NCBI GenBank assembly: GCA_021234155.1
Contig: JAJEKV010000096.1
Coordinates: forward strand, 2,791,678-2,855,677
Length of the DNA stretch: 64,000 nt
From: Isoetes taiwanensis
Taxonomy: Eukaryota > Streptophyta > Lycopodiopsida > Isoetales > Isoetaceae
Direction of reading: 5' to 3'
Shown here: positions 33,156 to 57,700 of the stretch, piece by piece
How positions within the stretch are numbered: the first letter of the stretch is position 1
Layout: each line of letters opens with the position of its first letter
The notes under the pieces: generated by a model
Told to the model about the DNA's origin: nothing
Seen by the model: only the letters and a program-made list of their open reading frames with translations
Database searches by the model: none
Position numbers and translations under genes: made by a program

Positions 33156-34727
33156 TGTGACGTCCCCTACTCGCATACGGTGCCCGCACCTTATACAAAC
33201 AGGAGTTCTTCCCCCATACCAGCTCCACACTGATACAGGGCCCTCCACATATCACTGCACCCGTAACGAGTCCCAGTGGGAAGAGTGAAGGTGTCATTCT
33301 ACCCTATCTTCCTCAGGGCCTACCTAGCTGCGGAAGCGTAAACATACATGTCAGTATACAACATAATCCTCCATCCACCCAGAAGGGTGGTGCATCAACA
33401 TCTGCACACACAATGATCAGGACATCACATAGGAAATCCTACCCAAGGCTCAGACTCAAGGGGATGACAGGACGGCTTGGGTCTCCAGAGTTCATTGCAG
33501 ACAGAATTCATGGCAATGGATTTGGCTGGCATAAGAACATGGCATAGGGTTGTCCACTCCATCCGCCCCTCCTGTGCACACTTTGCAGAGTAGGCTGAAA
33601 AGTGTTGGGACCTGACTGTAGCCCGCCGGATACATAGCCAAAAGGGCTATTCCTGGGTTTCATCTCCCCAGTTCCGATGGGGCAGGTAGGGATCACTCCC
33701 TCCAGAGATCTACATGCTGACCCAAGGTGACTAGAGGGCCACTGCCCGTATTCGACTTGAACTCAATGGAAGGTCATATCCACCACCTCACGAGTGTCAA
33801 GCCCACGCCTTGCCCACACGCAGTGGCAAGCCATTGGACCTAGTCACAATGATCCCCGGTAGCACTAACACACCATAGGGATGGTTCAAGAGTCGTAACA
33901 CGAACCTCCTTATAAGCGGTCGGCCCCTTCACCCACAACCGGTGTGGCTCTTGTGCACAGGCCGCATCTACGGTGTGTGCTAGAGAGGCTATTCTAGGAG
34001 CATCGACTACATGACTTCCGTGGCCTCTACCCCCTTCCCAATACAAGGAGTTCCACAGAGAAACATCGTCCATATACATCACCGGGGAAGAACTAAAGAA
34101 CTAGATCTAATCTATAGCATAGAGTTAGGTTCTTTAGTTAGTGTCTGGGATCTAGAGATCTAGATAGCTGCTATGGGCAATTTAATAGGCTAAACCCACC
34201 GATTCTATGACTAGAAGGCGGTTTAAGCTATTAAATTGACCAAATACCTGATCCTTGGGTGGCTCCTCCCCGACTGAGTTCAACCATTCCTTTGAGCTGA
34301 TCGAATTCAGAAACCGATGGTGCGATTCTCGGCCAGTGCGGTTCGAGGGCGGTTTTGGCTCTGGGGCAGCCAAAACGAGCTCTAAAACCCTATGGACGAA
34401 AACCAGCAAGTTAGGGTTTTCCTACCCTAAATAGACATGGGGTTTAGGGCTAGGGTTTCCAATTACCCATTTTAGCATGTGGGATAATTGGAAAGGCCCC
34501 ACTTGCCTTTAATGGCTAGGTGGCAAACTATGCCTACATGGAAAAGTGTGCCCACATTAATGTGCATATGTGCACATTAATAACATGTGAACATACCTAG
34601 CAAGTTGCCCTAGGGCTACTTACACGGCTACCCGGGCGCAGACACGTCGGGTCGGAGTGGCGGTAACGCTGCTGGCGTGGGCGCGATGCGATAATGCTCG
34701 GGACCGTTATCGTGGCCGAACGTCACA
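33156..34727 (-). repeat. 3' LTR of the 18.4-kb element
   Basis: This 1572-bp LTR is the counterpart of 50,055-51,586. The inner boundary is set by the PPT (34728 onward) and the outer one by TGTGACG on the + strand at 33156. It keeps a segment around 34,455-34,490 that is absent from the other LTR. Confidence 0.93.
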
Positions 34728-34741
34728 TTCTCCCACCTTGA
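34728..34741 (-). other. Polypurine tract
   Basis: The - strand reads AAGGTGGGAGAA immediately before the LTR start TGTGACG. It is the plus-strand priming site of the element. Confidence 0.85.
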
Positions 34742-35599
34742 AATGATGCTATCCGCAAAGATCGTGGGTCTCCCCACCTTGGGATCTTCCTAATCGCACT
34801 GCAAATCCAACGTGATGCATACAATATAATACTTATACATTTACTAAGATTACCCTAAGGTAATATTTTTAGAACATTATTACGTCATCATACTATGGAA
34901 TACTTATCAATACATAACATCATTAAACAAGTTATTCACTATCCTAGTTATTATGACATTAAGTTAGACAAAATTTCAACATTTCATATCTATAATTATT
35001 GTTCGAGAATTTTCTTGTTCCTTGCAACACATTCCAACAAAATTTGTGTTGCAAGTCTTCGTAGCTCGACCTTCTGCCCTCCCAGGGCGCTCTATTGGCT
35101 GCAGGTGATACCACGTTAGTACCATTTTAATTATTTAATAAATTTTGGTTATATGGTGACCTCCACCCCACCTATCTACATGGATGCATGGCTAATCTCC
35201 CGGCGTAGGAAGAGGGTGAATCTTCCATTATGGCGTGGAGACAGCCTATATGCCTATATGCCGCTCATGCCTACACCCTAGTTGCCCGGTGGAGGATAGG
35301 TCCTTCCCGTATATGGGCGTGAAGGGCACGATTCCTCCTATCAAAGCATATATGGGGCTAGAGGTGCTTTTCCTATCCCGTGCATTCTTTTAATGACCTC
35401 CTTTCTCGAGGTCGTCTACTTCCGTGGAAACGTAAGTAGACTTTCTAATCTACCTTCCACTTTCGTCCAAAGAAACGCGGTCATGCCTACATTGACATTA
35501 CACCACGCCCTAGAGATCACGTGGTGGTCCCATCATCGGTAACAACCTAGCATAGGCGTGACCATACCTAGCATAGGTGGCATCGTAGATTAATCTTAA

Positions 35600-35815
35600 C
35601 TACACAAGAATTAACCTACACAAATCGACATGCGAAGCGATTTCTTGGGAGATGACCTTGCCGCCCCATTGCTCCATAAACCGTGGGTACCGCTTTACTA
35701 AATCTTTCTTAAGTACCCATGTCGGCGTCTTCCTCCACGGCAAGTGTTTCCACTTGACCAAATACCGGAGGAATTCTGATCTCCGTTTTTTCTTGAAAGC
35801 TTTATCAAGAATCAA
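35600..35815 (-). pseudogene. Chromodomain at the end of the element's pol
   Basis: The frame reads ILDKAFKKKRRSEFLRYLVKWK with WV further on, the usual chromodomain pattern of chromovirus integrases (aromatic residues at Y, W and W). It is followed by a short tail (MEQWGGKVISQEI) and a stop. In characterised chromoviruses this domain reads histone methylation and steers integration into heterochromatin. It lies in a different frame from integrase, separated by a degenerate GPY/F region at about 36,000-36,100 (FKVGDGVWLK, LAPRWAGPF-like). Confidence 0.8.
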
Positions 35816-36269
35816 TTGGGACTATCTCCAACTCCCCTCCTCCATCATTTCCAACAACGTTGGAGTGTCCAAGACTTCGATGCGGATTTGGAGTATGCTT
35901 CTTCAACAAACTCACGTGGAAGACCTTTATGAATCTTTAGGTGTCGGCAAGTCTAGTTTGTAGGCTTGATTACCCTACTCTCGACTATTCTCAAAGGTCA
36001 AGCCCACCTTGGAGCAAGCTTCTTACAATTTCCGATCCTGAGCTTCGCCTGCTTCACTTTGATCTTGAGCCAAACACCGTCTCCAACTTTGAACTCTCGA
36101 TTTCGTTCGATGCTTTTCGGCGATGCTCTTTTGTCGATTTCTTTGCCGCTAGCGATACCCTCGAACCTCTTCCACAAGCTGCCGCGATATCGCCAACATC
36201 TCGGCCGCGAAACTTCCACTTTGACACGGGGGTTGTGCGGTGTGCGGAGTTAGGCACCGATAGCCGTAA

Positions 36270-37200
36270 TTAATCATAAACCACGACATTTGGGATGATT
36301 CCTCGCTTGGTGCTATTGTATGCAAACTCCACCAAGTGAATAAACTCTTCCCACATACCTTGCTTATTCCGCATATAGTTTCGTAGCATGTCTTCTAAAA
36401 TCCTATTGGTCCGCTTCCGTTTGGCCATCCGGATCGAGGATGATATGCCAGGGCTCATGGATAGCTTGGTCTGAATCGTCGAAAGAGGTCTTGCCAAAAT
36501 GCACTCATGAACTTGGGTCCCCGTAGGATATAATCTCCCTTGGCATACCATGAAGCTTCGAAGATCTCTTTTGGTGAAGAGCTTTCTTTGTATCCATAGT
36601 CAGATTCGTGGTCCCGCAAGGCACAAAATGTGCCATCTTCGACAACTTGTCGACCACTACCATCAAGGCATCCTTCCCTCTTACCGTTCTTGGGAGCCCT
36701 GTTATAAAATCCATGCTGATTACCTCCCACTTAGCATTTGGCACCGCTAATGGCTCTAATGCCCCCAGATTCGTCTGCTCTTGCCGTCTGGCTGGCATAG
36801 CTGACATTCCCCGATGTAGCGAAGCTACTTGCTTCTTCATTCCTGGCCAATAATAGCCTGTCGCGACTTTGAAATATGTTTTCATGAATCCCGCCCGGCT
36901 ATTGGGTCATAGAAGCGTGTCATGGAGGATCAATTTCTTACTCCCGATGATTCGGTGCACGCGACAACTTGTTCTTATGATATAACAGGTTGCTCTCCTT
37001 CTTATAATGCTTGAAGGCCTCCCGCTCTTTATCTGTTCTAGCCTCCCTAGAGAGGCTTGCCCATACCTCCCTGAAATCCACATCCGTTGGCAAGGTCTCT
37101 TGAATCTTTCTTACCAAAGTCCTGGAGAGCGTCGAAATTGCATTGCAATGCACTCTAGTTGTCGGGGGTGCCTTGAAAGTGCATCGCTACCACATTGAGT
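36270..37200 (-). pseudogene. Integrase region of the element
   Basis: The zinc-binding part (YYWPGMKKQVASLHRGMSAM, with Cys lost) is near 36,840-36,780. The core has VISMDFITGLPRT (first Asp) near 36,725-36,690 and KLSKMAHFVPC near 36,645-36,615. GQTE-like, RTNRILEDMLRNYM and WEEFIHLVEFAYN follow near 36,430-36,310, including the third acidic residue region. It is split over several frames. A block upstream (37,153-36,940) is the RNase H to integrase linker. Confidence 0.8.
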
Positions 37201-38300
37201 TTCCTACTTGTAGACTATCTCAAAGTCATATTCCTCGAGGAACTCCATCCACCTCCCTCAGTTGAGGTGGTTGGAATACATCTTTGGAGGCTCGATGGTG
37301 GGTATCAGTTTAGACTTCCTTCCCAAGAGATAGTGCCTCCATATTCTTAGCACACGACAACCCGCAAATAATTCTTGATCATGCGTTGGGTGGCCAGATC
37401 TCGGCGTCGTTCATCTTCACGAATCATCCTTACGCTCTTCTTGCATAAGCCTTTTGTAGCTATCTTACTCGCATCATTTGCTACAAGCTTATCTTTCTCG
37501 AGGTCGTGATCAAGGCAATTTGTCGTCGGGCTTCTTTCAACAATTCAAACCCCTTTTTGGGCTTTCTTGTGCCAATGCTCGCCCAATCTTTCACCTTCTA
37601 CGCCCATCGTCAGTGCGTTACTTGCGGGGCATTATCTTAGCAAAGTTCTTTATAGACTCCTATAGTACCACTACTGGCAGAAAGCTCGACCTCATGTACA
37701 TTCTTAGCCGACCCAGCGGAATTCTTGCTTCAATCTTGGCGGGATCCATTGAGATGCCTTCTCCCCGAGATCACATGACCAAGGTATTCCACCTTCTCCG
37801 CTATGGCGGAAGTGGCACTTCCGACAACTTGCATATAACTGGTGCCTCCTCAACTTCTCCAAAGACTCTTCTCAAGTGTTATAACGTGCTCTTCAAGGGA
37901 TCTGCTTATACACCAAAATGTCATCAAAGAAAAACAATCACAAAGGTGTCTAGGAACTCCTGAAGATATCGTTCATGAGCCTCTCATGAATGTCGCGGGG
38001 GCATTTGATAAGCCGAAAAGGCATTACCGCGGAATTCATAATGCCCATACCGCCACAAGACTCCGTTTATGGATATCTTCTTCCTTTATCCGGATCGATG
38101 ATAACCGACCTTAAGTCGATTTTGGAGAAGATCCTTGCTCCTTGTATTGATCCATCAAGTCATCGATCTTGGGGCGCATACTTGTTCTTAATGGTGTGCT
38201 TATTCAAACTGCCTATAGTCTATGCACATCCTTAAACTACCATCCTTCTTAACTTTAAGAGAATGGCGCTTCCAAATGGTGAGACACTAGGTCTAATGAA
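37200..38300 (-). pseudogene. Reverse transcriptase and RNase H region of the element
   Basis: Visible pieces in order on the - strand: CIDYR-like and LNKHTIKNKYA near 38,230-38,180, FSKIDLR-like near 38,120, NDIFR and FVIVF near 37,970-37,930, then DDILVY at about 37,925-37,908, the catalytic Asp pair. RNase H ends at FEIVYK near 37,220-37,200, followed by DALSRHP at about 37,190-37,165. Many one-base slips; not functional. Confidence 0.8.
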
Positions 38301-40400
38301 GCCTAGGGTCGAAGCAAAATACCTCGCCGCTTTAGTCGGATAACTCCTAAGTTGTCATTCTATATGGAGCTTTGCTTGTCGGCTTTGTTCCGGTTCGAGT
38401 GCTATCTGCACTCGACTCCCTGTAAGGAGGGAGGTGCTCGATCTCATCGTGAAAGAGATCGTGGAATTCGTGATCAAGCTAGCTATTTGCCTTGGCAACA
38501 ACTTCGAGCACCTTGTCTTCTTTACTTTCTTGGTCTTGGCTCTTCAATCTCAAGTTTGAAGATGTATGCCACTGCTCATTCTTGATGCACTTGAACAGCC
38601 CTTTAGAAGACATACTGCTGCATGATGGGAACAACTTCTTTACCGTGGATCTCAATGATCTTGTCGCCGGGCGTTGGGAAGGTCACCTTCTTTCTTTCAA
38701 TCAATAATGGCCCTCTTTGGTCCAAGGTAACTCCATACCTATGATCAAGTCGTATTTGCCAATGCCCATTACCTCCGGCCTTTATCGGATATTAATCCAT
38801 GGCAAGTCGATGTCGGTTGATTTCTTCTTAATTGCCGCATGCGCCTTCTTCGCTCCACTTGCTAAGACAACGGCCTTGGCTTTGACTTTAGTGGTTTCAA
38901 CTTCAACATTTGAACCATTAAGGGGATGCAAAGTTATGGCTACTTCCCGGTCTATCGGGACTATGAATGACTTAAGCTTTGGCCTTCCCCTCGGAAATTA
39001 CCTTATCTTTGGCTCTCTGCACTCTTATATCTATTGCGGAAAAGATATGACACTCACCACGAATGTATTCGCGGGCTTCCTCGCCCGTCGTCGTCCGAGG
39101 TGTCCCAATCTCCCAACTTACGCGAAAGGTTGCACTCATGGCGTATGGGCAGTTATTTGTCCCCTATGGCTTTGGAAGCACACAAACAAGCCTGCTTTTC
39201 CTATGCACTCCTGTCTCTTTTCCTTGGGCATGGCACGCGCAAAAGGACCGCCTTTGCTTTGGAGTAGTTTGACCCTTCCTGCTTGTCTTTGAAGGACACT
39301 GCTTCTTCTTCTCCTGCTGCTTCCCGATTACCACTATATGGGGCTCTAGCTGGTCACTTTGCATTTGTTCTCGGGCCCTAAAGCGCTTTCTTTGCCTTGC
39401 CTTTGTCACTGGTAATATTCTTTGCCTCGCCGCTATTACGGGGTCAGTTCTTACCAAGCTTATTGCCCTTGGACTAAAACCCGATCTTGTTCACAGGGTT
39501 TGTGCCCTTACAAACTCGCGGATCTCCTCATTCGGACCTTCAATGTGGCTTTCTCTTTGCGCCGCTTCTCACCCGCTTTGGCACGTACAACCTCGGCCTC
39601 ATGAATTCCTCACGTATATTTCTGGGTGACTTGTTGCCTTCTTTACCCAACTTTGTAAGCTATTTTGCATCATCTTTGGACTTGTGTTCCCCTTGGGCGT
39701 AGAGCAGAAGGCTTTAGCAAACTTTCTACGAACTTACAAGCATCCTGCTTAAGCCCATGTGCCTTTGCATAACCCTTCCACCAAATTAGATGCATCCTTT
39801 CCAGAGTTGGTACATTTGCCGCCTTTTTTGTCTTTATCCTTCATGCCATAAGCATTGCCGTACTCACTCATTTCGTCCAACCATGCCTCGCTTCTAATCG
39901 ACACGATTTCTCAGGAAGCTGTTCGATTCGGGCCTTCATACATTGCCCAATCACGGAAATCCTACAGCCTATACAGGTGGCGGAGGCTCACGGTGTCCCT
40001 TTGTCGTCATCTATGGCGTCCCTACGCCTTGCATCTGCGGGGTTTTTCTGCCTTGCATCTGTTGTTGGGATCTGGGCAGCTCTTCCTCTTCCCCGGTGGT
40101 CACGAGTCTACGAACTTGATCAGGGATTAGGCTTGGGGGACCTCCTTCTCTTCTTCTCTTCTTGTCTCTTCTGTTTCCGAGGCCGATGCTTGAGGCGGCG
40201 GCGTTACCCAGGCCCCGCTCCTACTAGCGGACGGCCAAGGCCTTTATCGTTCGGTCCGTCCTCATCGAGATATTTCCTCTTCTCGGGTGATGGCTCCAAA
40301 TTCCTCGAATAGGTTCCTTGCGGGTGGCACTGGGTGGACTCTGTTCTTCCATAAGTTCTCGTTGTCGTTCCCCGAGCTTAGGCCTCTAGGCTGCATACAC
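38301..40400 (-). pseudogene. Gag and protease region of the element
   Basis: Protease-like coding is supported by KYDLIIGMELPW near 38,765-38,715, resembling the IIGMPWL-type block after the flap. Upstream (40,400-39,000) are basic, lysine-rich pieces in several frames, consistent with gag and a nucleocapsid tail. A start codon lies near 40,385. I could not confirm a zinc knuckle. Heavily frameshifted. Confidence 0.5.
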
Positions 40401-40549
40401 AAGTAGTTCATGGCTATATGGTTAGTTTTACTTGTTCTCTTACATTATTTATGAGTTGGGGACACAAAATACATCAACAAAACATTTATAGTGCAAAAGA
40501 AATTATATTCATATTTTATAATATGCCAATACAAAATTAAAACTTAGGG

Positions 40550-42089
40550 ATCAAGGCGCTAATTATTCTTGATCGGCGGATAGGATGGATTATCCTCTAG
40601 GAACTTTTTCACTTGGGTCGTTCCCCCCGAATGACCCAAGTTCCTAAGGATGTTGGCTGAAGATCCATACGCAAAGCTCCCGCCAAGTCTTCCACTCTGC
40701 GGGTGGGAGGTATAAAGGCTGCGATCACACCGCCGATCTTCCTTGCTTTCAGAAGGTATGGGCGGTAAAACATCGAAAGTGCTACCGCTCTCTTTGCGAG
40801 GATGGTATACCTATTGTTGAGGGGCAACCGCCAGCGATGCCGGCCAAATCCACGATTGCGATTAGCATCGATACTCCTTCTTAAGCCTCAGGGGGTGAAT
40901 TTGCGGTGAATTACCGCTATTCTTCCATCCATGCAGCAGGGGAAGGTACCCATAACGACCTGGATTTGCGAGGTCCCCGGCCACTGCAGATCCAGCCTCA
41001 GGTGCGCTTTGCAAAGTCATCAACCTCCACCGTGGTGAGCTCCCTGTAGTCCCCCGATCGCTGTCGGAAGCCCCCCGAGGTCAATTAGCCTCTTCTCCGG
41101 GAGGTGCTGCCAAGAGCTTGCCGTCAGATGTTCGGGAGGTCACAGTGAGCGGATCCCCATCATTCTGTGGCGAACTCTTCCTCCGTCATTGGATTTTGTT
41201 CTCGGCCTTGTGCGCCTCCATAATCAGCCTCCTCGATTTGGCCAGAGGCTTGGATGCCGGAGGTGGACTCTCTTTTGTGTAAGTGTCGGCTTCCCTTACT
41301 TGGAGGGGAAGTCGGATGCTCCTCGGACGATGAAGTCATCCGGTCCGTTCTTGGGGTTAGTGCGGCAACTCTTGGTACGTACTCCCTTTCCCCGCTCTCC
41401 GGGGAGGTTTTGGATGTCGCCAGGCGAGAAACTCCTCGACTTGACAATAATGGGGGGCTAGGCTTGTAATGCCTAGCCCAAGGATGGCGCGACTCTAAGG
41501 ATTTTGCGGCTTCTCTCGAAGTCCCGCCACTCTTGTTACGCTTGTCGCCCTCTCTGGCGGGTCGAGCTCGGCGTAGTCTTCCCTCTTCCTCGATTTCTGT
41601 TCCTCCGAGTCCTCCTCTTCTTTTTCCTTCCCTGCTCATTTCATATTCGTAAGAGCCATTGCTCTCTTTGCTATGGCTAATGGGTCCCCGTCCATGGGGG
41701 GAATGGAGGTTTCCCCACGGTGTTCGTACGGTGGGTAGAAAGATTGCCAAGCGGTGTTAAAGAAATATTTGGTCCTATTGACGGTTAGGACCATTGGCTC
41801 AAGCGTCGTTAGCGCTTTGTTTGTCAGTACTTGGCAATGTTTGGAACATCGCCTAAAGGTCGCTTGCAGGGATTGCCTAGGAACAAAGTACCCACGCAAG
41901 GGGAAGCTGCACTAGTCTTTGGTTCTACCCTAGCTTGGAACTCGGACAAGACTCTCTACCGTAGCCGGGGTTGGCGTGCAAGGTTGCTTGGACATCTACC
42001 TCCTTAAGATATGGAAGATTTGGTCGATGTCGGCCTCTAAAGATGGCTATATTTGCACCATCCGGCAAGGAAAATCGAGAGGTTGCCAT
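40550..42089 (-). pseudogene. Unidentified ORF before gag
   Basis: The ATG at 42,089 is the first after the second hairpin module and opens with MATSRFSLPDGANIAIFRGR. Further on, in other frames, come a structured-looking block (about 41,880-41,700: RTKYFFNTAWQSFYPPY), then a long charged, Ser/Arg-rich stretch (41,650-41,160), then a block near 40,820-40,610 (RAVALSMFYRPYLLKARKIG). It ends near 40,550. It is separated from gag by about 150 bp. I do not recognise the family; it could be an extended gag N-terminus. Confidence 0.5.
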
Positions 42090-42389
42090 TGGTTAATTGC
42101 GGAAGAGGGTATCAACGTTTGCAAGAGCCTCGAGGGGAGTTGGGAAATCGGTTTGAGGCAGGAGCAGACTTGTAGGGTGCTATTTGAGGAATGAGGGACC
42201 TATTTATAAAAAGGGGAAACCCTAATTTTTTGGATGACTTGGAAAATTCGTGAGGTTGGGTGATCCTAGCCTATACTTGAGGTCAAAATGGGAATTTGAA
42301 GACTAGCTCGAAAGTGTTTGAACATGGTTGGATTACAAAAAGATGCTATACAACAGGTTGAAGATGGTTTGGACAAGTCCTGGTGAAGA

Positions 42390-42670
42390 AATGGTAGGAG
42401 GTCTCACGGCTCAGCCTCGCTCAAAAACTAAAAGTTTAGTTTCGACCCGGTAGCGGTGTGAGACATCAGTCCCATTTGGATCAAAACGTGTCCAATTTGG
42501 GTAAACTAAGGGTGTAAAGATGATGGGCTCATCAAATCAGATAGAATGGACCCCTTATTTGGTCAATTTGGAGCTGTTTTGGGCAAGTTTAACAAATCTC
42601 TCCACTTTACGCCTCGCTCAAAAACTAAAATTTAGTTTTGACTTGCGCCGGTATTTGTGACATCATCTTC
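42390..42670 (-). repeat. Hairpin pair 2, before the unidentified ORF
   Basis: Two imperfect stem-loops, about 42,394-42,468 and 42,600-42,662. Each contains TTTAGTTTTTGAGCGAGGC on the - strand, preceded by its partial complement (AAACTAAA) and flanked by GTCTCACA/TGTGAGAC-type ends. They are more decayed than the pair at 49.6-49.85 kb but have the same order and nearly the same spacing (about 206 versus 189 bp). Confidence 0.85.
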
Positions 42671-43959
42671 TTTCTGGCCTGCAAATGCCCTATTTTGCTG
42701 AAATAAAAAGCTAAAACTTACTAACTTGTCTTAATTAATCAAGTTCAGGCAATTAAAGTACACAAAATTGCTCTATATTACAAAATCTATTGTTTAAATT
42801 TGGGTTTTCCGACTATCCGAAAACTTTTTGGAATTTTTATTTAACTTGATTTCCTAAGGTTTCGAGCCTTTTGGCTGCCGGGAAAAAATTCCGATTTTCC
42901 AAAAATCGGACAAATTTCTTTGGCCATTCATTTGGGGTTTCAATTTTTCCCCTTTCTGGTTTCGCCTTCCAAATCCGGCATGCATATGCCATGCCACGAT
43001 GAACCGAAAATCATTGAAGGGATGATTTTGCCAAATAGCAAAGCCGTCTGCTTCTCCTTGCCGTTGCGACTGAATGCATAAGTGGGTTAGGCTGCAACTA
43101 TTCTAGCAAGAATCTGAAGGATATTAATTCATTGGTCCAACGATACGATTTCACGGATTGGATGCCCATACTTAGGTAATCTCTTATCTACTACAGACTT
43201 ACTCACCTGGCTTTAATGTTTATCATAATCATTATATGGCAGATTGCTAACCAGAATTTTGTATTTCCTTTAGCTATCTCTATTTTCTCTCTGTTTGCTA
43301 CTAGACCTTCGTCATTGACTGCATCATATTTATGGATGTCTTTTGCTCAGATTTAAGGATGGAAATATTCAATTGTGATTTGGCTTCTATTTCATCTGGA
43401 AAAAAAACCGATATCCAAAAATCAGTAAGATTTCTTTGCTTATGATTTCGATTTTCCCTTCCCAATCTTCTTTTGCATGCATATGCCATGATTGCTGTAT
43501 GATTTCGAGAACATTTCATGTGGATGCCCAGATTATTTTTGGAAAAATTCTGTGTGCTTACAGGTGGTTACGCCTTGCAAATAAGTTAGGGCTTATTTGA
43601 GCTTTCGTTTTCCTTAGTATTCTTGGTCATATTTCGTAGATGCAAAGGCTTGAAAGAACCAGGGGAGTACATAAACCTTTGTTTTATGCTATTAAGTTAC
43701 ATCTGTTTGATTGCGTGAGATATGATATTGGGATCCAATGTTGGTTTTAGTTCTTTTTCTTTCAATTATATAGTAGAAGGAGGAGACCACTCGATTTTTT
43801 CAATGCAAATAGTTTGAACTCCACATTTTTTCAATATCATATTTGTCTATTCTTATACAGCAGGTTCATTGATATCATAGCATATGGCAGTAGGAAGGTT
43901 TTATCAGATACATCATGGCCAAGGCCTTGAAACTTTAAGATAGATAGCTGATTTATGCT

Positions 43960-45470
43960 TCTCTTCTGCATGCAGAAACCACTATTCATTTCAAGGTCAC
44001 TTAACAACTGGCCACTGGAGTGCATCTAGAGCTGGAGTTTTTTACAATGGGAGAATATGTGGCAGCATAGAAGTATGCAACTTGCTAGATCATAGTCAGC
44101 AGCCTACAACTGCAGCAAGTATGTACGTTGAGTGTCTCATTGACAGACTTATGTGCTTCTTATAGAGATTTGTGTTAATGCTAGCATTGGCAAAATCAAA
44201 TGGTTAAGAAGTGCTTTTTTTAACTGGATAAACCACATGTAATACTTCAGTTAGGGTTTTGAAGGTCATAATTCGTTTGCCTGTTTGCCCTGATAGTTTT
44301 TTAACTGGATAGACCACATGTAATACTTAAGTTAGGGTTTTGAAGGTGATACTGCTCAGAGAAGTTTTTATCAAGGGTCTAACATAAAGTAACCATGCAT
44401 GGGTTAGCATATATCGTGGGAGTCAGTTTTGAATCAGTACCTAGCCACTGTCTGTGAGGTTTACTACAATTTTTATCAGGCAGTACCACCTCTGGGCCCT
44501 GGACTTCTCCATCTTATATTTCTGTCCCTACTAAATGCTGATGCTGGGTTGCCCAGTAAAGGTTCTCCAATACTATGCTTTAGATTGAAAATTTAATGGC
44601 AGATAACATATAGACATGCAGTCTACATCTTTTGACAAGCAAAGCTTCAGGCCCTTGGATCTAAAAGTAAGTACATTCTCTAGAGAAATATTCCAATTTA
44701 AATGAAATGTGGAGTGTTGTTTGTAATATGTCTAAAATTGACAGAGCCAGGATCCCCTTCTTAATAGTTTTATCCTCATTTAATGTTGATGCATGATCAC
44801 TCTTTCAAATGTGATTGCAGAGAAGAGCTGGGCGTCCAATCTATGACAGGTCAAGGTTCACCTTTAATGTGTAAGTATTGTTTTTTTTATGTATACAACT
44901 GAGCGAAATGATGTGGAACCAGCAGAGGATTGCCAGAACATTCAACTGAGGTAAAACAGGATCTTCATATTGCTACATGTAAATTAGTGTTGTTAGTATG
45001 TCTCTGGGCAATGCTTTCTGCTCCAACAAATATTCAATGCCATTTATGCTTTCGATGTACCATATGTGTTATTGCAATTACATTGTTAGTTTGGCAGCTG
45101 TTTATTTGCTTGGTAGGCATTTATATGTCAGTAGTATTTTGGAGCATAATTTCGCTCCAGAATTGTCAACTCAACTATTGGCTCTAACCACTTCTTCCTT
45201 TACCACTTCCTGCCATTCATCACAGAGGAAGTATGATTCTGGAGGCAGCAAGAGTTAGATGTTGAGAATGATGGCGAGTTTATGAGACCTTCTTTTGTAA
45301 ACTGGACCAAAGAACTGGCTAATACTATGTCTTTAATTGGCATTGTCAAGGGTGATGTAGAGAAGAAATCCACGAGCAATGGAAAGCCATATACCCGTTG
45401 CAGCTTATCCGTTTGGAAGACCTTTTACTGTCTATTTTTTTAGATCCAAATCTGGACAAAAAGTACAACG
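43960..45470 (+). pseudogene. Captured gene fragments, possibly OSB/SSB-like
   Basis: Exon-like pieces within the Helitron. One is around 43,965-44,120 (GHLTTGHWSASRAGVFYNG). A second is at 44,821-44,872, between a TGATTGCAG acceptor and a TGTAAGT donor (RRAGRPIYDRSRFTFNV). A third is at 45,250-45,410 (FVNWTKELANTMSLIGIVKG, then GKPYTRCSLSVW). The last resembles the OB-fold start of plant organellar single-stranded DNA-binding (OSB) proteins, where VANSVxLIG.V is followed by a strand ending in a similar pattern. This is a tentative call from pattern alone; a stop lies at the start of the third piece. Confidence 0.3.
44210..44350. repeat. Direct duplication of about 60 bp
   Basis: TTTTTTAACTGGATA(A/G)ACCA, then CATGTAATACTT(C/A)AGTTAGG and GTTTTGAAGGT, occurs at about 44,215-44,272 and 44,296-44,351, inside the Helitron. 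Confidence 0.85.
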
Positions 45471-46084
45471 AGGTAACTGATCTTCTCGCACGACATCTAA
45501 GGTCAGATGAATGCTACATCCTGAGCATGGCGAACATTATTTCTTTACAACTAATGCAATAAATGAAAGATCTTTCTGCTTTGCATAAAATAAAGATTTC
45601 CTGCAATGTACATGTTATGCAAAAAAGTTTATCAGGCTTTTCCTTTGAGCTACTATAAGATTCTTGAGAATTTGTTTGTTTTTGAGAAGGCCACATTATA
45701 TGATGATTTTGGCAATGATGTTTTCTTCTAGAGCTTGAATTGTTTGACACAGTTTAGGAATATGATGCAATTTTAGCTATGTTATCAGCTATGCATTTTG
45801 GCAGTTGGTAGCAATACATAAAGCATTAGTGACTTTAGAGATGGTGACCTTTAAACTTCTGAAAATTTGATCTGTAGCACAAGGGATATTCACATTATTT
45901 ATCCTCACACTATATTTGATGAAGGGACTAGAGAGTTGAGTGCTGGGACGCAAATTTGACAAACTGATTTGGCTAGATCCGAAAGAGGAAGTATTGTTTT
46001 ATTTATGATTTGCTTGGTAGGCATTCATATGTCAGTAGTATTTTGGAGCATAATTTCGCCCCAGAATTGGCTCTAACCATTGTC

Positions 46085-46365
46085 TTTGATAGCTGACAAT
46101 TGCTTCCTTACATTTGCAGATTTTCAAGGCTATGCATTAGTTTTGGCATGTGACCTGAGGCAGTGCCGTAAGGATTACACTTCTTTGGTCTCCTGTTGAG
46201 TGTCTAACCCACAGCCTCTTCAAGCCATAGAATTGCTTCCTTACATTTGCAGATTTTCAAGGCTATGCGTTAGTTTTGGCATGTGACCTGAGGCAGTGCC
46301 GTAAGGATTACACTTCTTTGGTCTCCTGCTCAGTGTCTAACCCACAGCCTCTTCAAGCCATTGTT
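46085..46365. repeat. Tandem duplication, about 127 bp x 2
   Basis: Two copies from TTGCTTCCTTACATTTGCAG to CACAGCCTCTTCAAGCCAT, at about 46,100-46,226 and 46,232-46,360, nearly identical. A separate segment (TTTGCTTGGTAGGCATT, then ATATGTCAGTAGTATTTTGG and onwards) is duplicated at 45,108 and 46,010. The Helitron interior has thus been rearranged repeatedly. Confidence 0.9.
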
Positions 46366-48123
46366 TCTTTGACATCATTGGCAGCCTAGATTCTCACACT
46401 TATGTGATTATTTCAACATAGAAATGGGTTCAAGATTTCTTAGGATACAATTATCTTGGATGATGAAAAAGTTTTCAATTTCAAGTAGATTCCGGGTACT
46501 TTAGCTGGGTTTAAAAAGTAGCCCTGGAAATGGAAGATATATAGTGTTAAAATTGATGTAATTGAAGTCTAGAATCTCAGATGAGTCATTCATGCGAAAG
46601 ATGCCCAGATAATCTTTTTTCCAAAGTGACAAGCACAAAGAAGATCTAGATGGTCATACGATCAGTAATTAATGTCTATTCTTGTGCGTCTTGAACTTTT
46701 TTCTCTGGCATATAACTTTTACCTTCAAGAAATGGACTGATTAACATCTTGACCCTCTGACATACTTTGGACTATTGACAACATGCAACTATTTTTCTGG
46801 TTGTATGTGGTTATTGGTGTTTATTTGGCATGATAGTTCCGCAGGGCCATGCAAAAAAGGTTCCCCTTTTAGTCTGAAAATAAGCGGAAAGCAGGCAATT
46901 GCTGGCTTATAGGCTCACAACTGTTTGTCTCTGAGATGTGGGGCACTACTCCGAAAATACAGCCAGCTCTTTATTCCAAATGAAATTTGACAAATCTTCA
47001 TATGTTTTACAAGCATGATGTTAAAAGACTTTCTATTCATTATTTGAGAACTTGAATTGGTCATGCAATTATTGGAAACACTTACTATTGCTTTTATATC
47101 AGAAAATCCTCTCTTCTGAAGATCATGTGCATCGTGTGCGCAGATTCTCGAAAGAGGAAGAAGATTTCTTCAGAATCTTCTAAGGAAAGAAAAAGATCTT
47201 TAGAATCTGCCTTTGTCTTTAATAATATTTAATCCATTCGCACGCTTCATTATTTAGAACCGGATCCATAAGCTCGAATATGATTTTTCCATATGCAAAC
47301 CCAAAATACGCAATACAAGCACTGGTAAAATTATAAGTTTATTTAATACTCAATAGTGCAATTGCCCACCTATAAAATTCAATTGGGTTATGTGGTCTCT
47401 CATAAAACGACAATGCAACTTAACCACCAAAATTTTTTTGGATAGTTGCGAAAACCAAATCTAAACAATAGATAACTAATCCAATCTACGATCCAATAAC
47501 TTTCCATACTATGAAAACTCTACACAAACAACATCAAGTACATCATCGTCGCCTTATGTTCAAACTTCAACTTCTAATTGAATTGTCAATGGCCCAAAAC
47601 TACTTGATTGACTATGCCATTCTTTATAATACACAAATTACTTATTATAAATCGACAACATCCTACACAATCTCATTTCCAAGGCATACAAATCAAATTT
47701 ATGTACTTATATCGAAACTATCGTGACCATATTATAAGCTTTTAATCATGTCATCACTTTTAATTTTCTTTAGTTAAATGGTGTAAATATGTTGCTAAAT
47801 TTAGGTAGTTCATTCATTTTAAGCAATCCTATCCTTTCTTTTCCTACTTAATTCTACTATAACAAGTTCATATCTCAGATGAGGTTTTATGTATAGAAAA
47901 GAAGTAGATCCTTGCGACATTCGAGATTGGAATTCCATCGACTGCCAAATCCTTGCATACCTATGTTGTTGTGGAGCTTAAAGTTTACAAATGCCAAATC
48001 ACTCATGACATCCTTATGGCACTATTTTAAAGCCTACTAATGCAAAACCATTCTACAATCCACATTTGCTAAAGCCCGGCAACGCCGGGCACCATGACTA
48101 GTTTCAATTAGTTATAAAAACTT

Positions 48124-49381
48124 CTAAGGGCGTTCTCCCTTTATGCGGCTCGCAAGACTCATGTCTTGTCGCATGAGGGTTACTCGCTTGGCGTGAACAG
48201 TGCAAGCTCGTTGAATCTTGAAGTGTTGCACTATTTTTGCTTCAGCCGCTTCTGCATTGCCCGGCCTCAAATTAGTGACCCCTAAAGTCAGATCAGTAGT
48301 CTGCATCACTTCTCGAACTAGCAGGAGCAAAGGGGCACGGGGAATTAGAAGAGCCGTAGATCATTTGGAAGTGCCTAATCTCCCTCCGGCTCTCCTCTCC
48401 ACCTCCTTCTGTCGATCTTTTTTCTTGGGTGGTGGCAGGAGCCTGGGCTTTGGTGGTGGCGGCTTCAAGGTTTCTTTGCCGTTGCTTTCGCCCTCCCTCG
48501 ATGACCCACGACCTGTTTTTCTTCATAGTACTTACTGTAGGCCTCCCACTTCTTCATATCGCCTCGTGTTCCCTCATCTTCCTTTAAGTATAGCTTTGAC
48601 CCGGTGCGTGACATAGGCTTCAGGCGGCGGTTGTGGCTGTTTCTTCTGTCCCAAGCGATTTACTCGGGGCTTACGCGCTTGATCTCTTGGGGCTGCTCAC
48701 TGGCGCCGGCTGCTTTCGGTACTACGCTTTCGTCGCTTAGGGGGGTTTGGAAGAGCTTCCGCTGCGGCGTTAGGGTTGAAGTCCCCGTCGGAAAGAGTCG
48801 TCGGAGGGGTTCGGAGGTTCGTCGGCTTGCCGCTCTTTGATGACGATTTTGGGGTTAGGCCTCTTCTTTGGTGGGACGTCCTTGACTTCCTTGGGCGATC
48901 CGCGAATTTGCCCCTTCGCCTTCTTCTTCTCCTCGGCGTATACATTCCCCTCTTCCCTCTTCCTCTTCTTACATTTCCCTCTTCTTCTCCGGCGTTCATA
49001 CTTCTTAATGAACCTCGCGAATCTGCTTCCCTCTTTGGTTCAAGTCTGCGCTTTGGTTTCGTCCCGGGATCTCGTGGCTGCATCAGAATGGTCTTCTGCT
49101 CTTTCCTGCTGCCTGATCTCCCGCTCTATTTCCTCGTATACCTCCCTTGTCTCCTCATCCATGGAGGTTGGTGATGTGGCCTCGTCCTGCTCCACCTGCT
49201 GATTGAAGACATCAATCAGATCGGATGTATCCTGCTCTTCTGAGATGTCTTCCTCGCTCGAAGGCGAACGTCCCCCTCTCGCGAGCCTCTCACGAAGCAT
49301 CTGCCGAATGACTTCAGTGTCAGTGGCGCTAGTGGTTTCGCCTGGGCGACGCTTCCTGGCGGTCTGTTTGGTTCGGGCCAT
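48124..49381 (-). pseudogene. Histone H3-like ORF of the LTR element
   Basis: ATG at 49,381 opens MARTKQTARKRRPGE: residues 1-10 equal initiator Met plus the first nine residues of canonical H3. An acidic Ser/Glu/Asp-rich region follows, then helix-like EVYEEIEREIRQQERAE and a TGA at 49,040. The same frame continues as a Lys/Arg-rich stretch (FARFIKKYERRRRRGK and onwards) to about 48,780. After a frameshift come Pro/Lys-rich pieces, a TGA at 48,697, then KKWEAYSKYYEEKQ near 48,560-48,520. The C-terminus is a histone fold: REIRHFQ (48385-48365), a one-base slip, then STALLIPRAP (from 48,360), LVREV, EAAEA, HAKRVTLM (48195-48172) and RIKGERP with TAG at 48,124. These follow H3 order and spacing through the alpha-N, alpha-1, alpha-2 and alpha-3 regions. 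EIRHFQ, LLIP and HAKRVTLM lean toward CENH3, while GERP leans toward canonical H3. Nominal length is about 419 codons against 136 for H3. It is the first ORF after the PBS leader. Known H3 packs nucleosomes; the role here is unknown. This copy cannot make the full protein. Confidence 0.85.
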
Positions 49382-49589
49382 GTTTTACGGATCGTCGATC
49401 GGATATAAGCGCCCAAAGATCGCCTAAGTGCGGGGGAGCGGATTTCTAGGGCTGGGACGTGGAAATGAGGGGGGTCTACATCTATTTATAGCTTTGGAAG
49501 TTTTAGGTCAAAAATTCAAGTTGCTCTATTTAACATGCTAAAGCACCTATTTAGTTAAAATTTACACTTATTTCAGACTTTTCCTATTT

Positions 49590-49855
49590 ATTGGTCTCAC
49601 AGCTTGCGCCTCGCTCAAAAACTAAAGTTTAGTTTTTAGACCAGGCGCGAGCTGTGAGATCTCATACATTTCTAGGTTGTTTAGGTAATTAAAACATGCT
49701 ATTCTAATTAATTCCTATTTTAGAACTAGCCTTACCTTATTACTTTTCCCAAATTCATCATGTTTTGGTGATCTTGGCTCGATGTCTCACAGCTTGCGCC
49801 TCGCTCAAAAACTAAATTTTAGTTCTTCGACCAGGCGCGAGCTGTGAGACCACCT
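49590..49855 (-). repeat. Hairpin pair 1, in the leader before the H3-like ORF
   Basis: Two strong stem-loops, about 49,594-49,661 and 49,783-49,851. On the - strand each runs TCTCACAGCTCGCGCCTGGT, then AACTAAA, a short turn, TTTAGTTTTTGAGCGAGGCG and CAAGCTGTGAGA, so arms of about 30 bases pair with few mismatches. They sit between the PBS and the H3-like start codon. The same pair arrangement occurs in the spacer before the next ORF. Confidence 0.92.
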
Positions 49856-50041
49856 CATTTGGAAAGTTTTTGGCTCATTCTTTTTAGTCTTGTTAAGTTC
49901 CAATTCACTTAATTGTTACTAGCTTAGCATAAACTACAAAAATGAGAAAAAATTTTCCCACTTTTCGAGGCTTGAGGATCCTATCAAGTTAGTACTACTG
50001 GGAGCATGGCTAGTGCTTTGCTCTTGGTCTCCAAGAACATT

Positions 50042-50053
50042 GCTCTGATACCA
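50042..50053 (-). other. Primer-binding site (initiator tRNA-Met)
   Basis: The - strand reads TGGTATCAGAGC one base after the 5' LTR end. It is the standard plant PBS complementary to the 3' end of initiator tRNA-Met. It fixes the element's orientation and the inner LTR boundary. Confidence 0.95.
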
Positions 50054-50054
50054 C

Positions 50055-51586
50055 TGTGACGTCCCCTACTCGCATACGGTGCCCGCACCGTATACAAACA
50101 GGAGTTCTTCCCCCATACCAGCTCCACACTGATACAGGGCCCTCCACATATCACTGCACCCGTAACGAGTCCCAGTGGGAAGAGTGAAGGTGTCATTCTA
50201 CCCTGTCTCCCTTAGGGCCTACCTAGCTGCGGAAGCGTAAACATACATGTCAGTATACAACATAATCCTCCATCCACCCAGAAGGGTGGTGCATCAACAT
50301 CTGCACACACAATGATCAGGACATCACATAGGAAATCCTACCCAAGGCTCAGACTCAAGGGGATGACTGACGGCTTGGGTCCGTGAGTTCATTGCGCATG
50401 TAATTCATGGCAATGGATTTTACGGGCATAAGAACATGGCATAGGGTTGTCCACTCCATCCGCCCCTCCTGCACACTTTGCGAGTAGGGTGAAAAGTGTT
50501 GGGACTGATCAGAGCCCGCCACGGATACATAGCCAAAAGGGCTATTCCTGGGTTTCATCTCCCCAGTTCCGATGGGGCAGGTAGGGATCACTCCCTCCAG
50601 AGATCTACATGCTGACCCAAGGTGACTAGAGGGTCACTGCCCGTATTCGACTTGAACTCAATGGAAGGTCATATCCACCACCTCACGAGTGTCGAGCCCA
50701 TGCCTTGCCCACACGCAGTGGCAAGCCATTGGACCTAGTCACAATGATCCCCGGTAGCACTAACACACCATAGGGATCGTTCAAGAGTCAGAACACGAAC
50801 CTCCTTATAAGCCAGTCTGGCCCCTTCACCCACAACCAGGTGTGGCTCTTGTGCACAGGCCGCATCTACAGTGTGCTAGAGAGGCTATTCTAGGAGCATC
50901 GACTACACAGCTTCAGGGCCTCTACCCCCCTTCCCAATACAAGGAGTTCACAGAGAAACATCGTCCATATACATCACAGAAGAACTAAAGAACTAGATCT
51001 AATCTATAGCATAGAGTTAGGTTCTTTAGTTAGTGTCTGGGATCTAGAGATCTAGATAGCTGCTATGGGCAATTTAATAGGCTAAACCTACTGATTCTAT
51101 GACTAGAAGACGGTTTAAGCTATTAAATTGACCAAATACCTGATCCTTGGGTGGCTCCTCCTGACCTGAGTTCAACCATTCCGCTGAGCTGATCGAATTC
51201 AGGAAACTGATGGTGCGATTCGCTTGGGCAGCGTCTGGGAGGCGGTTTTGGCTCCTGGGGCAGCCAAAACAGAGCTCTAAAACCCTATGGACAAAAACCA
51301 GCAAGTTAGGGTTTTCCTACCCTAAATAGACATGGGGTTTAGGGCTAATTGGAAAGGCCCCACTTGCCTTTAATGGCTAGGTGGCAAAATATGCCTACAT
51401 GGAAAAGTGTGCCCACATTAATGTGCATATGTGCACATTAATAACATGTGAACATACCTAGCAAGTTGCCCCTAGGGCTACTTACCTGGCTACCCGTCGG
51501 CGTACACGTCGGTCGGAGTGGCGTGTACACGTGACGAGGCAGTACAGTATACGTTCTGGGACCATATATTGTGCTGGAACGTCACA
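50055..51586 (-). repeat. 5' LTR of the 18.4-kb element
   Basis: This 1532-bp LTR starts (- strand) TGTGACGTTCCAGCACAATA at 51,586 and ends GACGTCACA at 50,055. Compared with the 3' LTR it has scattered substitutions and lacks a segment of about 40 bp near 51,345. Confidence 0.93.
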
Positions 51587-52250
51587 AATGCTGATCACTT
51601 GCACATTCTCCTTGGCACATCCCTTTGCTAGCAACCAGTTGATTCAGGTTACCTTCATAATTTACCCAGCACAGAATTTCAGTGTCTCGGTCTCGCCTCA
51701 TACCACAGGTATAAACATCTCCTGCAGCAATTTCTGAAAAAGGAACCCCTTTGGGGGCGTTGCATTGACCATATGTGTTATCACCCCAGCAGATCATCCA
51801 TGGTTATCATTCCGAAGGCGACATGTGCGATTATCTCCAGCTGCTGAGCTTGAATTAATGTAGTCGTTAGGAGCATCATATTGCCCATTGTCGTTGGTTC
51901 CCAGCACAAAGCTTTTCTTGTAATTAGCTCAATTCCACACACATGAAACGTGCCTGCAAATGTGGCAGAATCTGAGCATTTGGATCTGAGCTCCAGTTCT
52001 GTGAAACCCCTTTTCCCATGCCTTCCCCACAAAGACAGTTTATTATCCTGTATTCGCAAACCATAGGTGGTACCTGCAGTAACAACCTTCATAGTTACTC
52101 CTGAAGGGGGTGTGGATTGACCGTAGTAGTTATCACCCTAGCAATCTATTGTACCCAAACCATCATCTCTGACTGCACAAACATGCCACGCGCCAACGCT
52201 TAGACGAGAATACCTTGTGAGCTGATAAGATACTGAAACATTGAGGACTG

Positions 52251-54758: not shown

Positions 54759-57700
54759 AAGGAAGGAGTTACCGGAGATACTACATGTGACAGGTGACAG
54801 TCTTGTTGATACAGAGCTTGATACAATTTGCTGGACAGAAGAAATATCTGCCTATTGCAAAATAATTTACACAAGAGAAACAAGAGAAGGCTTTTGCAAA
54901 TATCTGCTGAAGACGGCCGTGCATGGAAATGTGAATCTACCAAAGGAGACTCCTGATGCAAAAACAATAGGAGAGGCTGTAGGATCTTTTGTGGCATGGC
55001 CTTTAAAAGACATCAAGAAAATTGACGTGGTTAGTTCATATTCTCCCTTTATATAATTCAACTTTTCTTAAATGTCTTCTAATGATAATAAATTATGCCT
55101 TATGTAGGAACAAAATACCAACCCAAATACCAACCCAATGCCAAGTGTAGTCCTTGAAGAGGATACAGTTCAAGTTATTGAGGAGGATACGAATCTTTTT
55201 TCAAAAAGGACTGAGTGGAAAAACAAGAAGTTTAGATTAATCCATTCTTGTTCTGGAGAAACATTTGCAATTGCAATCATGTGTAATTGCGATCCTTTAG
55301 ATGCAGTCGAAGATTTGCCACTTGGAGATGACACTGTCGGGGTTGCTATTACTCAGCTATTACCTAATTACAACTCAATGAGGCAGAGCAATGTGAGCAA
55401 CAATTGTCGTGTATGCAAAGGCATGGTTGAGATTTCTACTTTGATGAGATGGCCAATAGAACATATTCTATATCTATATGGAAGTATATTGGTTAGGGCC
55501 AATGTAGATACTGAGCTTATAGAATATTCTTTCTCGATGTCTCCAGAGAACGTTCTTTTATATAAGAAAAGAGAGCTCACTTCTCAGTGAAGAAAGCAAT
55601 TAAATGAAAATTCAAGAGCAAAGATGAAGGAGAAATATCTAACCCAAAGAAAAAACTGAAAAAAAAACATTGTTCAAAGGAGATTGTTCAAGAAACAAGG
55701 GGAAGACCTTGTTATCCATCTTTGATGCACAGTTAAATTCTCCGTCGAAGAAATACAAATGATTGAAAAGAAGTTTTGGAGGCGGACTTCCAATGACAAA
55801 AAGAATATAATGTATTCCATGTTTGAATCTAGCATTAGAGATACAAATGCAGGTCACATGACATATTCATTAGAGAATAGATGGGTATCTGGAGAAGCAA
55901 ATGACATGCATGATTGGTTTTTCGAGGAGAGCACTTTTTATAGATACCATAATGAATACAGAGATGGTGCAAGAAAAACAATACATGAAAACACATGTAC
56001 CATCAAAACTAGAAGCAACACTATGGCAATTGAAGTGTTTGATAATTCTGTTAAATACATAGCTGAATCAACGCCACAGAAGACCAAATTAAATGAGTAT
56101 GGGAACAAAGAGGTGAAGCATGTCTTTCCACCTCAACACATTCCAAAGGAGTGCTTACAACAGGTCAATACTGTTCCAACACAATAGGTGTGCGAGCAAT
56201 CTCTCAGTCGGCTTTTAGCGAATCAACGGAATAAGCATTTCAGTGATGTGGTGGTGGCAAAGAATAATAGCTTTTCAAAGTGTAACACTTGCATACAATA
56301 GCGAGAGGCTTTGAGAAGTACAGTTGTACCTGAGCAAAGAAATGCTTTAAGAAATAAGATGCATCGACATCAGAATGAGCAAACATCCTGTAGGACAATC
56401 TATTATCAGTGGAGGGTATTTTCCTCAATGGAACCCGATAGATATTTATGCATCATACACGATAAAATGGATCAACACAAAACTTTTTTGCCTAGATTGC
56501 AGCCAATCCCTAAAAGTTGTGCTAATGCACAACAGTTGAAGATCTCACTAGCACGAATGTTGACTCATGGACATGGAATAGGAGTGTATGGTCATTTCTC
56601 ATTAGATCTATGGGAAGATGGACCGAATTTTCATGTTGGCTCTACATTCAAATGTCTCCGAAATTTAGAAAGAGGTGTTACAAATGAGCAAAGCAGTAGC
56701 AATGCTTTGTTTGGAGCTCTTCTAAATGATGAGGCACATGTTGCAACTAAACAGATGGAAAAGAATGCAAAGTTTTCTGGAAGGGAACCAATCACTTCGA
56801 CAACTATAGATAAGACATCTCACGGAGTAGTGGGGAGAAAGCTACCACAAGAATTGTGTCTACAACTTGATAATTGCTTTAGCCAGAATAAGAATAGATG
56901 GCTATTTCAAGCATGCTCATTCTTGACAGCGAAAAATGTGTTCGAGGTTGTGAAGGTTGGGTTTCTTATGGTTGGTCACACACATGATGATGTGGATGCC
57001 TTCTTTGGAGTGTTCTCCTCTTTGTTGCAACGAGAATCAATAACGACGTTGCCACAACTAATGGAGTTATTTGCACGTACAAAAAAACCATCACCTATAT
57101 CATTCTTAGTTGATGAAGTTCCAGATTGGAAATCCTTTGTAGAGCCATATATGCCAGAAGGAAACCTTGCTTTGACAGGCCATTCCAAACCCTTACAATT
57201 CAAATTCTGGGTTAAAGAAGGTGTTCCTATAATGCAATGTAAGATGCGTTCGACAGACCAAGATTGGATCCCTACCAATGGATATGAAATGTGGAGAAGA
57301 GATAAAGATGGTAAGGTAATGATTCCTGAAGGCGAGCCTTTGTCACTCCCACCGTTCAAGAACACCAAAGATCATGAAGCATTGATGAGAGGACTTAAAC
57401 AATTTATTAGCCATTGGCAAGACATTTTACAACAACCAATACTGAGTGTAGCAAAGAAAGATTCTTTACAGAAGGTGATTATATATTGGGAGAAAATGGG
57501 TGAGGCCTTGCAAAACATTGATGGAGGAGGACCCTTGAAAGATGGATTTCTTCCAATTTCTAGATGGGAGAAGAAATCCCTAGAACAAGTTGAGTTGAAT
57601 GTTGGTACCTCGCAAAAAAAGAGCTTGGCTAATTGGCATGTTGGTAGCAAGTCTAGCAGGCCCCAATGGCATGGCCCTCTTGGATTGGTCGATTCTGAGA

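Follow-up and report, generated by a model that had tools for sequence, protein, structure and literature searches.

A Ty3/gypsy chromovirus of Isoetes taiwanensis whose first open reading frame begins with an H3 tail and ends with an H3 fold

We analyzed a 64,000-nucleotide stretch of the Isoetes taiwanensis genome (GenBank assembly GCA_021234155.1, contig JAJEKV010000096.1, positions 2,791,678 to 2,855,677 of the forward strand), hereafter the window, which contains a copy of a long terminal repeat (LTR) retrotransposon on its minus strand. Our results showed that its lineage is a Ty3/gypsy chromovirus with an H3-like first open reading frame (ORF1) between the primer-binding site (PBS) and gag-pol. 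In the window this stretched H3-like ORF occupies 48124..49381. It starts with the H3 tail MARTKQTARK, that is, methionine followed by A1 to K9 (49352..49381, read 49381-49352), continues into an acidic and then basic linker (48386..49351; about 320 residues in intact copies), and ends with an H3 histone fold (48127..48385), in which REIRHFQ lies at 48365-48385 and STALLIPRAP...RIKGERP at 48127-48360, with the stop directly behind (to 48124). An earlier note on this DNA had described the same parts at the same positions, as the first ORF behind the PBS leader of an LTR retrotransposon, and this description was borne out. In the copies compared, purifying selection is stronger on each of the two H3 ends than on the linker. 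As far as sequence can tell, the two preserved ends suggest that the element uses a substitute histone to handle host chromatin.

The genome searched was an assembly of 1,658,258,908 bases in 1110 contigs. The published assembly of Isoetes taiwanensis, obtained with Nanopore, Illumina, and Bionano data, is described as 1658.30 Mb in 204 scaffolds and 909 unplaced contigs, and 15.72% of it consists of LTR retrotransposons (PMC8566536). A codon pattern for MARTKQTA, in which GCG was the only alanine codon, was present at 165 places, and its reversed control at none; the window's own start is not among the 165 because its alanine codon is GCC. With a 436-bp stretch of the window's fold as query, all 40 candidates scored of 1472 first-look candidates were matches (the window and 39 others, 82-89% identity), and the copy number is a lower bound. 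These counts, together with the tblastn match of H3 to the window's fold (8.7e-14), rule out a chance match, which the earlier note had considered very unlikely.

Thirty loci (L009-L038), including the window's own (L009), were read; they are the best matches to the window and not a random draw. The MARTKQ start was found in 27 of them and the full MARTKQTARK in 22. Three loci (L016, L033, and L037) have an uninterrupted frame of 421 codons from the tail to the stop of the fold, and L017 is also open, with a first codon that reads I, its start codon being gone. The intact single-frame copies rule out an origin of the two H3 ends from different frames or elements.

The H3 identity of the C-terminal part is well supported in these copies, in which residues 1-10 form the tail, the linker is of low complexity, and the last 89 residues form the fold. 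The last 98 codons matched the Pfam Histone profile at 3.4e-27 (95.6 bits) in L016 and 3.4e-28 (98.8 bits) in L033, with a cut-off of 26.4. The L016 fold aligned without a gap to residues 48-135 of H3 in the PDB (5.4e-27), which is the canonical H3 length, and 50 of its 89 residues are identical to canonical H3. Among the residues kept are H113, D123, L126, R129, and I130, presumably of the tetramer interface, and R49, R52, R69, R72, R83, and R116, presumably in contact with DNA. Positions R63, K64, K56, K79, S86, S87, K122, and R128 are changed, some of them conservatively. In a tree of 84 rows, which rests on few columns and leaves 32 of its 75 inner branches open, the four Isoetes folds formed one clade (100/98) beside P0002, an odd H3 with ordinary spacing (91/84).

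The window copy of ORF1 is frame-broken. The tail shares its frame with REIRHFQ, the remainder of the fold is read in a different one, and in-frame stops intervene, so ORF1 is not one open frame here. A 78-residue piece of the fold matched Pfam Histone at 1.7e-9 and H3 chains of the PDB at 7e-12, and the ten-residue tail alone gave a nonsignificant tblastn E-value of 1.6 against the window. The predicted structure of the broken 78-residue piece contains three histone-like helices, at a predicted local distance difference test score (pLDDT) of only 64.5. A protein database search with a 113-residue piece of the window yielded 25 candidates and no match.

Complete elements place ORF1 within the retrotransposon. 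Six loci were fetched at 20 kb, and both LTRs were seen in three of them, C1045, C922, and C1039. These elements are about 13.0-13.3 kb each, their LTRs are 97.7, 96.9, and 94.2% identical, and they are flanked by perfect 5-bp target-site duplications, CTGTA, CTCTG, and TTGTG, respectively, which rules out a host gene merely lying inside a retroelement. Their order is LTR, PBS, ORF1, ORF2 (about 511 residues), gag-pol, and LTR; ORF1 is open in C1039 (the L037 locus) and broken in C1045 and C922. Pieces of C1045 matched the Pfam families Retrotrans_gag (3.5e-18), Ty3_capsid (1.7e-16), RVP_2 (1.2e-9), RVT_1 (1.4e-41), RT_RNaseH_2 (4.9e-30), Integrase_H2C2 (3.5e-20), and SH3_Tf2-1 (1.9e-22), and the rve core, truncated at a piece boundary, reached only 3e-4, below the cut-off. 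The domain order of gag, protease, reverse transcriptase (RT), RNase H, and integrase is that of a Ty3/gypsy chromovirus. ORF2 gave no match worth naming in Pfam and PDB searches. At the chromodomain, judged by eye in the C922 sequence against HP1, the first and last cage sites are both L and the W is kept, as in type II, and the chromodomain of these elements appears to be without two of the three cage residues. The leader contains two 66-nt repeats (49594..49849 in the window, no strand assigned), each able to pair with itself or with the other, and in complete elements their relatives recur before ORF2 at about 71% identity (e.g., C1045 1848-2105 and 3773-4041). Perhaps this repeated, hairpin-bearing leader provides separate expression signals for ORF1 and ORF2.

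Selection on the fold was assessed from 35 loci, of which 15 without gaps or stops were used, 19 were set aside for gaps, stops, or insufficient coverage, and 1 gave no match; picking open folds somewhat favours constrained copies. Pooled pN/pS was 0.154, and the median ratio of nonsynonymous to synonymous substitution rates (dN/dS) was 0.088, with a maximum of 0.66, over 89 of 105 pairs, the other 16 being omitted because dS was saturated or very low. The folds of L016 and L037 are separated by 1 nonsynonymous and 24 synonymous differences. Across the six pairs of the four open copies, dN/dS was 0.01-0.09 in the fold and 0.12-0.32 in the linker. In the tail, L016/L037 and L033/L037 each showed no nonsynonymous and 6 synonymous differences, one other pair showed none of either kind, and the three pairs with L017 showed one nonsynonymous difference, which is its broken start codon. 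Between C922 and C1045, dN and dS were, respectively, 0.020/0.351 for RT, 0.030/0.334 for ORF2, 0.041/0.373 for gag-protease, 0.104/0.513 for ORF1 counted from the first shared open part, and 0.036/0.293 for its fold. The stronger constraint on both H3 ends indicates that the protein has served the element through many rounds. Checks proposed in the earlier note, namely an H3 profile match, low dN/dS at both ends, and copies with both ends in one open frame, came out in favour of its reading.

Diverged subfamilies also retain the H3 ends to different degrees. Eight of the 165 pattern places were fetched, and L001, L004, L005, L007, and L008 align to the element, while L002, L003, and L006 do not. 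L004, with LTR and leader DNA about 75% identical to that of the element, starts with MARTKQTARK and has a complete H3 fold ending in IKGER in one other frame; 8 of its 10 tail codons differ from those of L037, all silently. L001 (70%) retains the tail together with the beginning of the fold, and L008 has the tail up to R8 and a damaged fold. In L001, L004, L005, and L008 the PBS 12-mer precedes the ORF1 start by 698-705 nt; it was not found in L007.

Several observations weigh against the chromatin role proposed for ORF1 below. In 27 of the 30 sibling loci, the window's included, ORF1 is not one open frame with both ends. Between C922 and C1045 constraint on the fold (dN/dS 0.12) is weaker than on RT (0.06) and similar to that on gag-protease and ORF2, and R63, K122, and R128 of H3 are altered in L016. 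The tail match ends at K9, where S10 is replaced by R, T, A, or Y and K14, K18, K23, and K27 are absent, so there is no complete H3 tail; instead of a tail through K27 with the fold about 47 residues from the start, only A1-K9 was found, followed by the linker of about 320 residues. The 35 MARTKQ starts listed continue to ARK in 24 cases, ARV in 5, ARS in 4, ARL in 1, and AQK in 1, and the four ARS starts are likely frame slips. Residue K9 is not universal among relatives of the element, since L005 and L008 have V and L007 has L at this position; the other three ARV starts belong to an unrelated family.

This second family (L002, L003, L006, and L051, on C8, C20, and C138) is a repeated gene family that starts with MARTKQTAR followed by VPG. 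Its start lies directly behind an AG resembling a splice acceptor, without a PBS or a match to the H3 element, and its later parts include IVNGNHTTTVA and ILDFFSGG stretches. About 29 of the listed MARTKQTA pattern places carry its exact start codons. It gave no Pfam or PDB match worth naming, and no Pfam histone was found in the L006 and L051 pieces scanned. It is striking that two unrelated families of a single genome begin like an H3 tail.

We consider that ORF1 probably serves as a chromatin adaptor, which would combine tethering to chromatin with local interference with H3K4/K9-based silencing. Judging from the interface residues, the fold would pair with host H4, and the H4-paired fold would bring the protein onto chromatin or into a histone-chaperone route. 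The long linker may then hold the tail, which is identical to H3 from A1 to K9, out to host readers and writers of H3K4 and H3K9. In this way the element, or its integration complex, could become tethered to a chosen chromatin state, where H3K4/K9-based silencing might be disturbed. Direct binding of the element's chromodomain to its own methylated tail is not favoured, because two of the three cage residues are apparently gone.

Since conservation extends to the fold and not only to the tail, we consider entry into H3/H4 chromatin together with display of the tail more probable than a pure decoy. A soluble decoy would act outside chromatin, where it would saturate H3 chaperones, or the proteins that read and write the H3 tail, and thereby blunt H3K9-based silencing of the element. 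The conserved tail, which spans exactly A1-K9, the long low-complexity linker, and the second MARTKQTAR family, in whose scanned L006 and L051 pieces no Pfam histone match accompanies the same start, would all suit such a function, but a decoy has no need for a complete, conserved H3 fold with intact tetramer-interface residues, and we regard it as rather unlikely. Still less probable is a packaging protein, in which ORF1 would be a gag accessory that forms a chromatin-like coat for the complementary DNA or RNA of the element, comparable to histone-carrying viruses. The basic linker adjoins an H3 fold that keeps several DNA-contact arginines, and ORF1 sits directly before ORF2 and gag-pol, as might be expected of such a protein. 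However, a normal gag with a Ty3 capsid match is present, no other histone match was found in the C1045 pieces scanned, and packaging leaves the conservation of the tail unexplained.

Passive capture, that is, a host H3 copy hitch-hiking without a role, is very improbable. It has a parallel in fungi, where hAT elements carry and multiply H3 and the copies in P. fijiensis have been inactivated by repeat-induced point mutation (RIP) (PMC6710886). Low dN/dS at both ends already disfavours it, the tail and fold remain legible in subfamilies whose LTR and leader DNA are about 75% alike, and the two ends are fused in one frame to a long linker. A captured CENH3 targeting centromeres, suggested by the resemblance of EIRHFQ, LLIP, and VTLMR-D to plant CENH3, was rejected as equally improbable, because the loop-1 insertion is absent from intact copies, the fold aligns gaplessly to H3 48-135, and the Isoetes folds were not grouped with the two CENH3 rows, P0035 and P0042, in the 84-row tree, which has few columns and many open forks, deep ones included.

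Histones and H3-tail-like proteins are carried by other selfish elements, such as histone-carrying viruses and viral H3-tail mimics like influenza NS1; the Isoetes element differs from these in having the tail and the fold at opposite ends of one retrotransposon protein. Searches of an open-licence literature library showed no retrotransposon-encoded histone, and the nearest precedent is the H3 captured by hAT DNA transposons in Dothideomycetes, fungi in which the mobile element has multiplied an H3 coding sequence to hundreds of copies (Dhillon et al., 2019, PMC6710886). Unlike the hAT elements, with their transposase and terminal inverted repeats, the Isoetes element has LTRs, RT, and integrase; the H3 copies of P. 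fijiensis are mostly truncated, all but the original being inactivated by RIP, and no long linker is described in the available part of that paper (PMC6710886). With plant chromoviruses, the element shares LTRs and the order of gag, protease, RT, RNase H, integrase, and chromodomain (Novikov et al., 2012, PMC3350952; Neumann et al., 2019, PMC6317226). Extra ORFs are known in many plant gypsy elements, and only 21.4% have a CDD domain match (PMC6317226), but none described in the accessible portions of these accounts is H3-like (PMC6317226; PMC3350952). Similarly, orchid gypsy elements contain a captured host regulatory domain as an extra ORF, which is an AlkB RNA demethylase and not a histone; the corresponding screen covered 121 angiosperm genomes and hence no lycophytes (Alvarado-Marchena et al., 2022, PMC9289625). 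The element is real, multi-copy, and selected, a captured-gene retrotransposon with an unusually telling cargo. Of the two labels offered in the earlier note, captured histone fits best, whereas histone mimic would be a functional claim beyond what sequence can prove.

Stretched H3 proteins also occur elsewhere. A protein search with the L037 ORF gave 72 matches among 7978 candidates scored. In 27 of 80 fetched proteins, which include 8 from an earlier search, the starts of tail and fold are more than 80 residues apart, and 23 of these have the tail at residue 1; P0022, P0025, and P0054 among the 27 look like misread ordinary H3 genes. Several sets, from a fern and from environmental sources, begin exactly with MARTKQTARK and carry the fold at or close to the C-terminus. 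They include P0046 (Ceratopteris richardii KP509_02G080900, from a cluster of 22 members) with its possible relatives P0016 and P0029 (tree support 97/34), the P0021-type (382-453 residues), and the P0063-type (384-402 residues), P0063, P0064, P0067, and P0069 being another kind of stretched H3. Eleven ENA proteins of the stretched set have a common middle part. These database proteins resemble ORF1 in having an H3 tail, a long linker, and an H3 fold; they differ in that their linkers look unlike, and their folds are not one clade in the 84-row tree, and, being known from protein records, they may or may not be retrotransposon-borne. Scans of IMG/VR with P0021 and with the L037 ORF1 gave no relatives. 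It is possible, and we propose it tentatively, that H3 surrogates made of an exact H3K4/K9 tail, a long tether, and an H4-pairing fold have arisen repeatedly in selfish elements of several eukaryote lineages.

In the window, the whole copy spans 33156..51586 on the minus strand (about 18.4 kb, or about 13.1 kb without a nested insert) and is collinear with the complete element at C1045 except for that insert. The 5' LTR (50055..51586), with the termini TGTGACGT...ACGTCACA, and its direct-repeat partner, the 3' LTR (33156..34727), both on the minus strand, are 92% identical between 33156-34662 and 50055-51523. Their differences are bunched in short patches, often near CAG/CTG, and some of these may reflect errors in the long-read consensus and not decay. 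The PBS TGGTATCAGAGC (50042..50053, minus strand), presumably complementary to the initiator tRNA-Met, lies one base behind the 5' LTR, and the flanking 5-mers, AATGC and AATGA, are alike at 4 of 5 bases. The LTR ends, the PBS one base inside, and the flanking 5-mers identify 33156-51586 as one retrotransposon. Further remnants on the minus strand, located by tblastn, are ORF2 (40580..42037; about 511 residues when open), gag and protease (38335..40421; Retrotrans_gag and RVP_2 on the C1045 copy), and RT, RNase H, and integrase (35777..38306; clear Pfam matches on the C1045 copy). The window's integrase piece itself reached 1.8e-4 for Integrase_H2C2, under the curated cut-off, and a chromodomain at the integrase C-terminus (35603..35821, minus strand) matched Pfam Chromo at 3.3e-8. 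The nested Helitron-like insert (42786..48101, plus strand) lies between ORF1 and ORF2. It is extra relative to a complete sibling, as seen from the alignment break and its ends, A|TC...hairpin...CTAG|T, which are like those of Helitrons, and it has internal direct repeats.

Around the element, a frame continues by eye across both flanks (51587-52092 and the far side of 33155), which seem to resemble RCC1-like/CR4 receptor repeats (CWGDNTYGQC); a gene or pseudogene of this kind seems to be the site of insertion. A DUF7869 protein (1.5e-38) at 55138-57708 on the plus strand, with 465 open codons from 56311, is perhaps part of another mobile element. Other gypsy RT/integrase remnants lie at 5788-12815 (tblastn 1.4e-16), together with a 2.2-kb imperfect palindrome at 9907-12103 (70%) and inverted repeats at 7543-8221/12148-12815 (79%).

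H3K4 and H3K9 marks are central to the host silencing of retrotransposons, and a preserved, element-encoded H3 with K4 and K9 is a possible direct counter-move to that silencing. If H3 surrogates have indeed been built repeatedly, such an element would place its own nucleosome subunit in host chromatin and control the tail signal that the host uses for silencing it. ORF1 may be relevant, too, to the chromodomains of type II in plant chromoviruses, domains that have no methyl-lysine cage and whose partner is given as unknown in the available text of Neumann et al. (PMC6317226). ORF1 is a tractable protein for studying how transposons choose or evade chromatin.
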